From a virus, in the IMG/VR virus record IMGVR_UViG_3300049215_000191, positions 1-23,188 of that record: a stretch of DNA of 23,188 bases, one strand, 5' to 3'. The notes beneath the pieces are model-generated. The model saw only the letters and a list, made by a program, of their open reading frames with translations. It was not told the origin of the DNA and made no database searches. This document shows positions 4,239 to 15,422 of the stretch, piece after piece. A program made the position numbers and the translations under genes. Position 1 is the first letter of the stretch, and each line of letters starts with the position of its first letter.

Positions 4239-5864
4239 ATGGACTTCAATCAGATCAAAAATATTACTTCTTCACTATCTAAATCAATAGATGATAATGA
4301 AAAAATACTTTTATCATCTTTTGCAGAAAAGCTTTCTCAAGCATCTGAAGTATATCCAGAAGATCAAACAATTGGGGTGATGTCAAATATAGTAGCAAGA
4401 ATGACTGGTGGTAAAAAATTATTTATTACAAAAGCAGAGGTAAAAGATTTATATAAAAAATTATATTCAAGAAATACTAAGTTTGCTGAAGTATTCTCAA
4501 ATGAATTGGGTCAAGTAGAAAAATTAGCCACTCCAAAAATGTATAAAAGAGATAATATAGAAAACCTTTCTTTGGTTAAGGAGGCTTTCGAAAAAGTAGT
4601 TGATCCAACATTGGCTAATGCATTAGATAGCATTTTTGGTAATGTTGTTCGCGGTAATACAGAAGCGTCGGCTAAATTAGCCGAGTCCGTATGTACACGC
4701 GCATGTGCAAATATAAAATCAGCATCTAAAATCAATGTTGTTAGTGGCGATAATAGATTCATTATATGCCAAGCTTCTTTTGAAACACCAAAAGGTATGA
4801 CAGCAGTATTTATTCCAATAGAAATAATTGCAGGAAAAGCATTATTACCAACGGTATTTATAGGGAATGCTGGGCCAGAAGATTTTTCCAAATCAAATTT
4901 AGAAAAATATATATCAGCAAATGCTGGTAAAAAGCTAACCGTTTCAGATAAATTAGTTCTTCAAGCAGTTAAAAATACAAAAGAAAATGGTATTGAAAAA
5001 ATTAGCAGTGTTGATATGGCATTAATAAAGTTAAATTCAGAAAAAGATACAAAATCTGATTATTTTACTAATAGTATTTTATATCAAAATGCCGAAGTAG
5101 AAGATGAAAATCTAGTTGTAAAAACACCAAAATATCAAGATAAAGATATGGAATCATTCGCAAAAGCTTTTGATTCAGCGGTTGGTGTTGCGAACTTCTC
5201 AATTGGTAAAGATAAAGTAGATGCTGGCAGAAAGGTTATAGCTAATAAGCTAAATAGTTTTGGATTAAAAAATCATCAAGTGTCGGTATTTAGCAGTGAT
5301 AATAAATCGATAACGTATGCGGTATCAGTAAATAATGGCCGGTTAGCTTTTCGTGTTCCAGTGAGCATTGAGAGTGGAAAGGTTCTTGAGCCCAGTATTA
5401 TGCTTGCATCAGGAATGATTGAATCTTTTTCAAAAGATGGAATTAATTCGCTGAATAAAAAAGAGGCAAAGGATTACAAAACAGCATCAGTTGCTTCACC
5501 ATTATACGGTTTAAAAGCAAGCGAACTTGTGCAAATTGTTCGTGAAGCAGTTGCGGAAGAAAATCTCGATAAGGCAGAAGACGCATTGAATGTTCTTTCG
5601 GAATCTGGTGATGATAAAGCATATCAAACAGCATTCGCAGAATATACAAATGGACTTGGAATGAACAAAATTGCAACACAAACGGTTGCTTGCAAAATGA
5701 TTGTAAGAAATGCTTCGAGCAAGCACGACCTATGTGGACATACTGGGCTTCCGCTACACAAAGTGTATCAGGATAAAAATGGTGATTGCCATCCAAACTA
5801 TCGTCGTGGAATGGATGATACATATGAGGGCGCGTATTTACAAAACTCAAAGATATTCTTTTAG
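4239..5864 (+). CDS. Unknown 541-residue protein with internal duplication, probable virion protein
   Basis: Two segments of about 95 residues look like diverged copies of one domain: about 126-220 and about 308-402. Each has a helix with the pattern A-D-S, then a (V)S-x-D-N-(R/K) turn, a beta stretch, F-x-(I/V)-P-(I/V)-x-I-x-x-G-K-x-L-x-P, and a G-x-x-x-x-F-S-K ending. The C-terminal region (485-521) has Cys/His residues in CKMIVRN, HDLCGHTG and GDCHPNYRRG that could bind a metal. No signal or membrane segment is seen. The gene starts 11 bases after its neighbour ends. The family is not recognised; size and position suggest a structural protein, and a major capsid protein cannot be excluded. 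Confidence 0.75.
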   Translation: MDFNQIKNITSSLSKSIDDNEKILLSSFAEKLSQASEVYPEDQTIGVMSNIVARMTGGKKLFITKAEVKDLYKKLYSRNTKFAEVFSNELGQVEKLATPKMYKRDNIENLSLVKEAFEKVVDPTLANALDSIFGNVVRGNTEASAKLAESVCTRACANIKSASKINVVSGDNRFIICQASFETPKGMTAVFIPIEIIAGKALLPTVFIGNAGPEDFSKSNLEKYISANAGKKLTVSDKLVLQAVKNTKENGIEKISSVDMALIKLNSEKDTKSDYFTNSILYQNAEVEDENLVVKTPKYQDKDMESFAKAFDSAVGVANFSIGKDKVDAGRKVIANKLNSFGLKNHQVSVFSSDNKSITYAVSVNNGRLAFRVPVSIESGKVLEPSIMLASGMIESFSKDGINSLNKKEAKDYKTASVASPLYGLKASELVQIVREAVAEENLDKAEDALNVLSESGDDKAYQTAFAEYTNGLGMNKIATQTVACKMIVRNASSKHDLCGHTGLPLHKVYQDKNGDCHPNYRRGMDDTYEGAYLQNSKIFF

Positions 5865-12521: not shown

Positions 12522-15422
12522 ATGTCGGAAGATTTACTATTAGAAAAGATAAAAGATAAACTGTTAGATTTTGATCCGGTTCATTTTGTTGAAAAATATC
12601 TTACGATTGATGGTGATAAGTTTCATCTACAAAAAGGTGGCTGGAAACCATTTTCAGATATTTATAGATATGTTGGTATAAAAGCGATAGAAAAAGACGG
12701 GAAGCCAGTCGTAATAGTTGCTGGGAGGCAGGTTGGTAAAGATCTTGCATTGGATACACCTATTCCAACACCATCTGGCTGGAAAACTATGGGAGATTTA
12801 CAAATAGGGGATAAAGTTTTTGATGAAAATGGTGATATATGTGATGTAATTGAAGTATCACCAATTTATACAGATCATAAATGTTATAAATTAACATTCG
12901 ATGATGGAACGGAAATTGTTGCAGGAGAAGACCATCAATGGCTAACATATACTAAATCAAACAGGAAATCATTACAAAGAGTTAAAAATCCTTCACAGCC
13001 AACAATAAAAAATACAAAAGAAATTATTAATACATTAAATACTAAAACAAGCAAACAAGAAACTAATCATTCTATTCCTATATGTGAGCCAGTAAAATAT
13101 AATACACAAAATCTACCTATTGACCCATATGTTTTCGGCTGTTGGCTTGGTGATGGTTCTTCGAATACGGGAGTGATAGAATGTGCCGATGAAGGCATTT
13201 TGTTAGAAATAAAAAAACATTATATAATAGAAAAAAGGAATATTAAAAATAATAAATCAAAATCTAATGCGTATAGAATAGGTGAAATACAAACTCATCA
13301 TCGTAAAATAGGCGAGCTAACAAATCAATTAAAAAAACTTAATTTATTAAATAATAAACACATACCAGATATTTATTTATATAGTAGTATTGAGCAGAGG
13401 TTTGCTCTTCTTCAAGGGCTGATGGACACCGATGGACATAATGATAAAACTGGAAAACAAGAGTTTTGCAACTATAATAAAAAATTAGCATATCAAGTAT
13501 TAGAATTAATAAAATCATTAGGAATTAAAGCAAGAATAAAAGAAAGTGATGCTAAATTATATGGTAAAGTAATAAATAAAAGATATCATATATATTTTAA
13601 TACATCAGAATCGGTTTTTAGATTACAAAGAAAATTAAATAATATAAAAGAAAAAGTAAATCTAAAAACCACTCATAGATATATTGTAAAAGCAGAGTTG
13701 GTTTCAACAGTTCCTACAAAATGTATAATGGTTGATTCGCCATCACATTTATATTTAGTATCAAAGTCATTTATTCCAACGCATAACACAAGTATGGCTG
13801 CCGCATTAGAAATGTATTTTTGTGGTTGTGGATTATACGGTAATGGTAAAAATCCACCCATAAGAATGGTGCATGCGTTTCCAGAAGCTGCGCTTGCAGC
13901 AGGATATGCAAAAGTAAAATTAAATGCAATGATTAGATCTTCTATTACTATAGATGATGGTAATGAATTAAAAGGAATAAAGAAAAAAACATTTATGCAT
14001 TCATTATTAGATACATCATCTGAAAGTAATGACACTTTATCTTTTAAACAATTTATTGGTGGAAATCATTTATGGATTGAAAGTGTTGGTATGGATGGTA
14101 ACAGATTGATGGGCAAAACGGCAGACATTATCTTCTACGATGAAGTTCAAAAAATGATGTCCATTGCAATAGGTAATTCATCAAAAATACTTACTCAGTC
14201 AAAATACGGTAAACAAGGCGAAGGTGTTCAAGTATTTTTCGGAACTCCCTTATTAAGGGGATCAACATATTGGGATTTATGGAATGCATCATCTCAACAA
14301 TATTTTCATTTAGGTTGTGAAAAATGTAAAGAGTTATTCCCATTATATACGCCTGGAACTAATGATTGGGAAGATATATGGTTATATGGATATACCGTGC
14401 GTTGCACGCATTGTGGGTTCGAACAAGATAAACGAGAAGCAACCGAACGTGGCAAATGGGTTCCATTAAAAGATCAACAGGACTCTAAATATATAGGTTT
14501 TCATATAAATCAATTATATATACCAACATTTACAAAAGAAAAAATTATATCTGAAAAGCCAGAAAACAATCCAATTAATTCAGAAAAAACATATCAAACA
14601 CAGGTTCTTGGAGAGTTTTACCATGGTGAAGCAACCATAATAACTATGGATCAGGTTAGGGAATTATGTGGTGATTCTAACAGGAAGTTCAGAGCAAGTA
14701 TATCATCAGATGAAGACCTCCCGGTATTTTTAGGAATTGATATTGGCGCAAAAAATGATTTAGCACAACTGGTTGATTCTGATAGAGTTAAACCGCAAGG
14801 ACAAAGTTTTAGCACAGCAGTGGTTATTGCAATGACTGGTCCGCAAAGAATGTCAATTGAGTTTGCAACCGCATTCAAAAGAAACGATCTTGCAAGTAAA
14901 AAAGGGCTAATAGAAGAGATAATGAGAAAATATTCAGTTAATTTAGCGGTATGTGATTTAGGGTATGCTAATGATTTAAATGAAATACTTCAAACTGAAT
15001 ATGGAGAAAGGTTTCTTTCATCACAAGCATCTAATAGAGTAAATGAGCATATAAAATTTAATTCAGATATTTTTCCAAAAGTAATTACATTTGAACGTGA
15101 TTTTTGGATAGCTGAGTTATATGAACAAATGAAAAAAGGTAATTTAAGAATACCAATGGGAAGTTATGAACAAGTAGCAATGATGATACAGCATATATGT
15201 AGTATGGAGATAAAACCTAGTATAAGCAGAGTTGGTGATGTAACACCGCATTATGTAAAAGGTGGATCGCCAAATGATTTTTTTATGTCGATCCTTAATG
15301 CATACATAGCGTTTAAATTTTATGTTAGTCAAGGATTTAAAATAAAAAACCCAGCACATATGAGAGATCCAGCAAAAGATAAACCGCCCGTGTTAGTTGC
15401 ATACTTACCGAAAATGAGATAA
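12522..15422 (+). CDS. Terminase large subunit, intein-containing (GpA-like)
   Basis: The motor ATPase and nuclease that packages phage DNA into proheads. The 966-residue precursor contains a 349-residue intein (residues 74-422), leaving a mature protein of about 617 residues. Splicing joins AGRQVGK (67-73) to T423, rebuilding Walker A. Walker B is DIIFYDE (535-541, Asp540/Glu541). A zinc knuckle with C599/C602 and C628/C631 separates ATPase and nuclease and is typical of lambda GpA-like large terminases. The RNase H-like nuclease has acidic residues at Asp740 (FLGIDIG), Asp812 (LAVCDLGY) and Asp919 (SPNDFFMSILNAYIA). The portal gene follows directly. Without splicing the ATPase could not work, because the intein interrupts the nucleotide-binding loop. 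Confidence 0.93.
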   Translation: MSEDLLLEKIKDKLLDFDPVHFVEKYLTIDGDKFHLQKGGWKPFSDIYRYVGIKAIEKDGKPVVIVAGRQVGKDLALDTPIPTPSGWKTMGDLQIGDKVFDENGDICDVIEVSPIYTDHKCYKLTFDDGTEIVAGEDHQWLTYTKSNRKSLQRVKNPSQPTIKNTKEIINTLNTKTSKQETNHSIPICEPVKYNTQNLPIDPYVFGCWLGDGSSNTGVIECADEGILLEIKKHYIIEKRNIKNNKSKSNAYRIGEIQTHHRKIGELTNQLKKLNLLNNKHIPDIYLYSSIEQRFALLQGLMDTDGHNDKTGKQEFCNYNKKLAYQVLELIKSLGIKARIKESDAKLYGKVINKRYHIYFNTSESVFRLQRKLNNIKEKVNLKTTHRYIVKAELVSTVPTKCIMVDSPSHLYLVSKSFIPTHNTSMAAALEMYFCGCGLYGNGKNPPIRMVHAFPEAALAAGYAKVKLNAMIRSSITIDDGNELKGIKKKTFMHSLLDTSSESNDTLSFKQFIGGNHLWIESVGMDGNRLMGKTADIIFYDEVQKMMSIAIGNSSKILTQSKYGKQGEGVQVFFGTPLLRGSTYWDLWNASSQQYFHLGCEKCKELFPLYTPGTNDWEDIWLYGYTVRCTHCGFEQDKREATERGKWVPLKDQQDSKYIGFHINQLYIPTFTKEKIISEKPENNPINSEKTYQTQVLGEFYHGEATIITMDQVRELCGDSNRKFRASISSDEDLPVFLGIDIGAKNDLAQLVDSDRVKPQGQSFSTAVVIAMTGPQRMSIEFATAFKRNDLASKKGLIEEIMRKYSVNLAVCDLGYANDLNEILQTEYGERFLSSQASNRVNEHIKFNSDIFPKVITFERDFWIAELYEQMKKGNLRIPMGSYEQVAMMIQHICSMEIKPSISRVGDVTPHYVKGGSPNDFFMSILNAYIAFKFYVSQGFKIKNPAHMRDPAKDKPPVLVAYLPKMR
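12741..13787 (+). other. Class 3-type intein with LAGLIDADG homing endonuclease
   Basis: It encodes residues 74-422 of the TerL precursor. The start reads D-LALDTPIPTPSGW, with Asp where class 1 inteins carry the nucleophilic Cys or Ser. Trp140 in GEDHQW (block B), Cys401 in TKCIMVDSP (block F) and Thr423 directly after HN make up the W-C-T triplet that defines class 3 inteins, whose first nucleophile is the block F cysteine. The C-terminal end PTHN|T is canonical. Between the splicing blocks lie two LAGLIDADG-type motifs, FGCWLGDGS (205-213) and LLQGLMDTDG (296-305), so it is a full bifunctional intein likely able to home into empty terL alleles. Boundaries are set by the perfect Walker A left after removal. 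Confidence 0.9.

Follow-up and report, generated by a model that had tools for sequence, protein, structure and literature searches.

Class 3 inteins are defined by a triplet of Trp at B:12, Cys at F:4 and Thr at G:5 (PMC5222942; PMC5050341), together with Ser or Thr at the +1 position (PMC5222942). By 2020, 1,701 class 3 inteins had been counted in nr, and 82.5% of them carried LAGLIDADG motifs (PMC7891396). Among the closest known systems are the TerL1-a inteins of mycobacteriophages, whose insertion point in the large terminase subunit separates the invariant Lys from the Thr (PMC5050341). For the mycobacteriophage Minerva, our alignment places the junction at GK|G or GKG|D, with GK|G the likelier by motif. 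Here we analysed a window of 23,188 nucleotides of viral DNA, and sequence comparison and structural modelling make us highly confident that it encodes a class 3 intein, with an embedded LAGLIDADG homing endonuclease, in the P-loop of a large-phage TerL. The observations behind this reading are an exact insertion, homologues with an empty site, conserved catalytic residues and a predicted fold.

The terL precursor gene (12522-15422; this and its parts described below are on the + strand) is a single open frame of 966 codons with no internal stops. It encodes a 966-residue large terminase subunit of the GpA_ATPase type, interrupted by the intein. The N-extein (12522-12740, 73 residues) ends with VAGRQVGK, the Walker A motif up to Lys73. 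The intein (12741-13787) follows in frame and comprises 349 residues (precursor residues 74-422), beginning with Asp and ending with His-Asn. The C-extein (13788-15419, 544 residues) encodes the remaining ATPase and the nuclease; its first residue, Thr423 (13788-13790), is both the +1 extein residue (G:8) and the Walker A Thr. The exteins sum to 617 residues and are joined as AGRQVGK-TS, such that the insertion point GRQVGK|TS lies between the Lys and Thr of the terminase P-loop. An earlier reading of the sequence alone had placed an intein at 12741-13787 inside Walker A, split between the same two residues, and both the coordinates and the junction proved exact.

Four homologous TerLs (L002, L005, L006 and L007; 58-92% identical) lack exactly residues 74-422 and are uninterrupted at the site, with the L002 protein being exactly 617 residues long. 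The sequence-only reading had proposed a search for intein-free homologues, and had also worded its refuting test such that terminases without these residues would count against an intein. The latter was the wrong way round; an in-frame insert that is missing from homologous host proteins supports an intein. The L002 TerL matches Pfam PF05876 (GpA_ATPase) with 56.1 bits against a cut-off of 25.6. Because this uninterrupted match spans the site (residues 61-297), the insert splits the GpA_ATPase domain; in the window TerL, Pfam places LAGLIDADG_3 and Hom_end within the insert and GpA_ATPase downstream of it. A model of the L002 TerL, of moderate quality (pLDDT 73), matched T4 gp17 by Foldseek (1.5e-10), as well as Sf6 gp2 and the D6E TerL. 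A tblastn search with the intein-free homologue matched Bacillus phage terminases; the phage collection contained no isolate TerL more than 60% identical to that of L002, the closest being about 25% identical. The window, a 23-kb fragment, also encodes RuvC-like, DnaJ-like, primase (Toprim), tRNA nucleotidyltransferase and portal genes. Since the closest TerL family members sit in contigs of 349-448 kb, the source of the window is probably a huge phage.

The splicing blocks, defined according to PMC5222942 and PMC5050341, were located by aligning the intein with its relatives. Block A (DLALDTPIPTPSG, 12741-12779) begins with Asp74, which is not a nucleophile. Block B contains His138 (B:10) and Trp140 (B:12) (12933-12941). 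Block F contains Cys401 (F:4; 13722-13724), the predicted first nucleophile, and His409 (about F:13; 13746-13748), a predicted helper of Asn cyclisation that was placed by inference using the position numbering of PMC7891396. Block G contains Thr420 (G:5), His421 and Asn422 (13779-13787). Thus position 1 is not Cys, Ser or Thr; the triplet is W140, C401 and T420; and Thr423 occupies +1. Every class 3 sequence mark examined is present, in agreement with the class first proposed. That proposal had named W140-C401-T423 as the triplet, of which W140 and C401 stand and T423 was rejected, being the +1 extein residue; the triplet Thr is T420.

Across an alignment of about 22 inteins, Trp67, Thr347 and Asn349 (intein numbering) are invariant and His65, Cys328 and His348 are nearly invariant, while residue 1 varies. 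Trp67, Cys328, Thr347 and Asn349 correspond to precursor residues W140, C401, T420 and N422. In a larger set of 122 intein rows (two mini-intein rows were misaligned at the C-terminus and were checked by hand) the triplet was conserved in 113 (W), 108 (C) and 113 (T). Residue 1 in this set was Ala in 55 rows, Gly in 13, Gln in 12 and Leu in 9, with Asp, Met, Arg and Cys in 5 each; Asp occurs in three lineages.

Pfam Intein_splicing falls below cut-off for a related mini-intein (described below) and is not listed for the full-length intein, so the assignment rests on the block alignment, a profile search and the fold. An NCBIfam search returned weak partial matches to intein-bearing proteins and nothing more. 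When the alignment profile was compared with solved structures, the top matches were the class 3 Mch and Msm DnaB inteins (3e-35 and 3e-34), followed by PI-SceI. The AlphaFold2 (AF2) model of the intein (pLDDT 87.8) shows a HINT splicing fold, and blocks A, B, F and G are all in place in the alignment. Using VIA-align, the modelled splicing domain superimposed on 6bs8 with a Z score of 21.4 (1.4 Å over 127/127 residues, 39% identity), and the whole model superimposed on PI-SceI with a Z score of 27.0 over 322 residues.

Between the splicing blocks lies the endonuclease domain. Its two LAGLIDADG motifs, expected from the first inspection, were recovered as FGCWLGDG (13134-13157; intein alignments) and LLQGLMDTDG (13407-13436; Pfam and intein alignment), and a further segment, NNKHIPDIY (13350-13376), is nearly invariant in about 22 relatives. 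Pfam LAGLIDADG_3 and Hom_end both exceed their cut-offs, and the two motifs with their acidic residues sit within an endonuclease fold. Judged from the two motifs and the one conserved segment, the endonuclease is probably active. The alternative, that the intein splices while the endonuclease is inactive and the element is now inherited vertically, draws on the closest relative, an intein without an endonuclease domain, from which it follows that such loss occurs in this lineage. We consider this unlikely for the window intein, as both motifs keep their acidic residues, NNKHIPDIY is intact and both Pfam families are detected.

That closest relative is a 137-residue mini-intein found at the same site in two IMG/VR contigs (L001 and L003), 76% identical to the window intein over the splicing domain. 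In a tree of 49 inteins the two forms make up one clade (support 99/99). Among 80 TerL-family loci screened by match length, an insert at this site was seen in L001 and L003/L054 only, and a DNA-pattern scan for more alleles of the insertion site returned nothing beyond the three contigs already found. Over 8.7 kb, two metagenome phage contigs, the filled L003 and the empty L002, share 99.85% identity, with a difference of exactly 411 bp at the site (5220-5225 in the empty L002; 5220-5636 in L003 and 1300-1716 in L001, both holding the mini-intein). Outside the site, L002 and L003 differ at 12 positions. Directly 3′ of the insert are four consecutive differing bases, ACG TCC in the empty allele and ACT AGT in the filled allele, both encoding Thr-Ser; in the window, which holds the full intein, these codons read ACA AGT. 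By a rough binomial calculation, the chance of at least four changes in six bases at the background rate is ~5e-11.

Because TCC and AGT are more than one step apart, and because Thr (ACC and ACT) occupies the Ser codon position in the outgroups L005 and L006, two separate origins of the Ser are likely. The sequences are read most simply if AGT was carried along with the intein in a very short 3′ co-conversion tract, and the four clustered synonymous changes are a probable co-conversion footprint. Alternatively, L002 may have lost the intein through conversion from an empty allele, or strains may have been mixed in assembly, yet L001, a separate assembly, has the same junction. We therefore propose only tentatively, as a possibility we rate below even odds by some way, that gene conversion recently transferred the mini-intein from one near-identical phage to another, leaving a 3′ scar of a few bases. 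If the cut came from a full-length relative such as the window intein, phage populations would allow an endonuclease-less mini-intein to move in trans. The empty site, the full-length intein and the mini-intein, found at one site in close relatives, form a natural series, and since two of its members are 99.85% identical, intein gain and loss in a phage population becomes directly testable.

The choice of site appears to follow the position of the P-loop Lys. Most of the TerL family encodes K-GRQVG-A/G/L-TT, with the Lys ahead of the loop as in deviant Walker A motifs, whereas the clade of the window TerL encodes A-GRQVG-K-TT (P-loop columns of the alignment; window 12726-12740). In six huge-phage TerLs with the shifted Lys (L008, L130, L133, L136, L140 and L148), a related class 3 intein lies outside the P-loop, at a G[KR]|T five residues ahead of the Walker B DE; the GKT at this position in the window (14112) is uninterrupted. 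This correlation between site and Lys agrees with an endonuclease requiring a GK|T-like target, and the switch of site with the moved Lys suggests that the target motif, rather than the protein fold, decides where the intein lands. The second-site inteins group in a single clade (97-99% support) and, measured by path, count among the closest to the window intein. Hopping of an intein within the same TerL, from ahead of Walker B to Walker A, was considered and set aside, the tree giving it too little support at the deeper branches.

Further inteins were observed in this survey. The TerLs of L133, L136 and L140 each contain two, the class 3 intein ahead of Walker B and a second insert 9 residues on, which starts with Cys after FFDE or LFDE and ends with HN|C; one of these is mini-sized and two are long. 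Terminases of the PPRHGK|T or PPGTGK|T type (L031, L036, L040-L042, L224 and L233) have inteins of class 3 layout with Ser at F:4 (W-S-T). The +1 residue is Thr in all of them and several lack a nucleophile at position 1 (Leu or Gln); judging by these residues, they are possibly an oxygen-ester variant of class 3, or inactive. The nearest inteins outside TerL are found in viral contigs L131 and L132, at the GVGK|T of small AAA/DnaC-like ATPases, a location which suggests that the intein lineage jumps between P-loop genes.

By extrapolation from the intein family, which supplies the splicing chemistry, the homing and the need of packaging for splicing, the following pathway is predicted. Cys401 would attack the Lys73-Asp74 peptide bond to give a branched thioester, and the acyl group would then pass to Thr423. 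Cyclisation of Asn422, helped by His421 and His409, would be followed by ligation of Lys73 to Thr423, yielding a 617-residue TerL whose P-loop is intact and releasing the 349-residue endonuclease. During co-infection this enzyme presumably cuts terL alleles that lack the insert, and repair copies the intein in. With the Lys and Thr of the P-loop kept apart by the insert, splicing should be a requirement for ATP-driven packaging; that TerL ATPase activity would require it is a sound inference, and a dependence of packaging on splicing has likewise been argued for mycobacteriophage TerL (PMC5050341).

A different chemistry, that of a class 2 or atypical class 1 intein, would have Thr423 attack the N-terminal junction directly, or Asp74 participate, with Cys401 being incidental. 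A residue 1 other than Cys, Ser or Thr is shared with class 2, and the profile also matches gp41-1, a class 1 intein that has the Thr. We regard this alternative as very improbable, since Trp B:12, Cys F:4 and Thr G:5 are conserved in relatives whose residue 1 is Ala, Gly, Gln, Leu, Arg, Met, Pro or Asp, and the closest solved relatives are class 3. Compared with the mini-intein relative, dN/dS was 0.05 for the exteins and 0.17 for the splicing domain, rough values at a dS near 0.9 that indicate purifying selection on both. That the intein is degenerate and leaves terL broken, as might be suspected of a metagenome fragment, is the least credible reading of all, given the open frame, the retention of all catalytic residues, the purifying selection on exteins and splicing domain, and a TerL that is essential for phage packaging.

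Class 3 inteins had been called uncommon in the sequence-only reading, and Asp at position 1 with an intact homing domain a useful variant. Neither description holds. Besides the nr count and LAGLIDADG frequency cited above, viral contigs contain over 590 candidate relatives, and residue 1 varies freely. Annotated phage records matching the intein number 716; nine of them, eight TerLs and one DnaB, were inspected and have the W-C-T residues and a site of the GK|T or GK|S type, with Ala, Arg, Pro or Glu as first residue. The terL intein is thus a new example of a class, an endonuclease domain and a TerL GK|T site that are already known, adding one class 3 intein in the TerL family of huge phages.

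Compared with known systems, the window intein shares its host protein and Lys-Ser/Thr P-loop site with the TerL1-a inteins (e.g. Minerva gp9, PMC5050341), as well as the WCT triplet, the LAGLIDADG domain and a length of about 350 residues. It is only about 32% identical to them, begins with Asp and resides in another terminase family (GpA_ATPase type, huge-phage clade). The TerL inteins of Vibrio phage 489E54-1, Stenotrophomonas phage SOVA965, Klebsiella phage fENko-Kae01, Escherichia phage ECD7 and Bacteroides phage B124-14 likewise have a GK|T or GK|S site, the W-C-T triplet and an H-N end; they are 329-353 residues long, 30-38% identical to the window intein, and start with Ala, Pro or Glu. 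The Mycobacterium DnaB class 3 inteins (6bs8, Msm DnaB1; 6rix, Mch DnaB1) have the same splicing-domain fold and WCT/His arrangement, but are mini-inteins without an endonuclease in a helicase host. PI-SceI has the same layout of splicing domain and LAGLIDADG endonuclease, but is a class 1 intein with Cys1 in the yeast V-ATPase gene. The L001/L003 mini-intein shares the site, Asp1 and the W, C and T residues, and differs from the window intein in missing the endonuclease domain.
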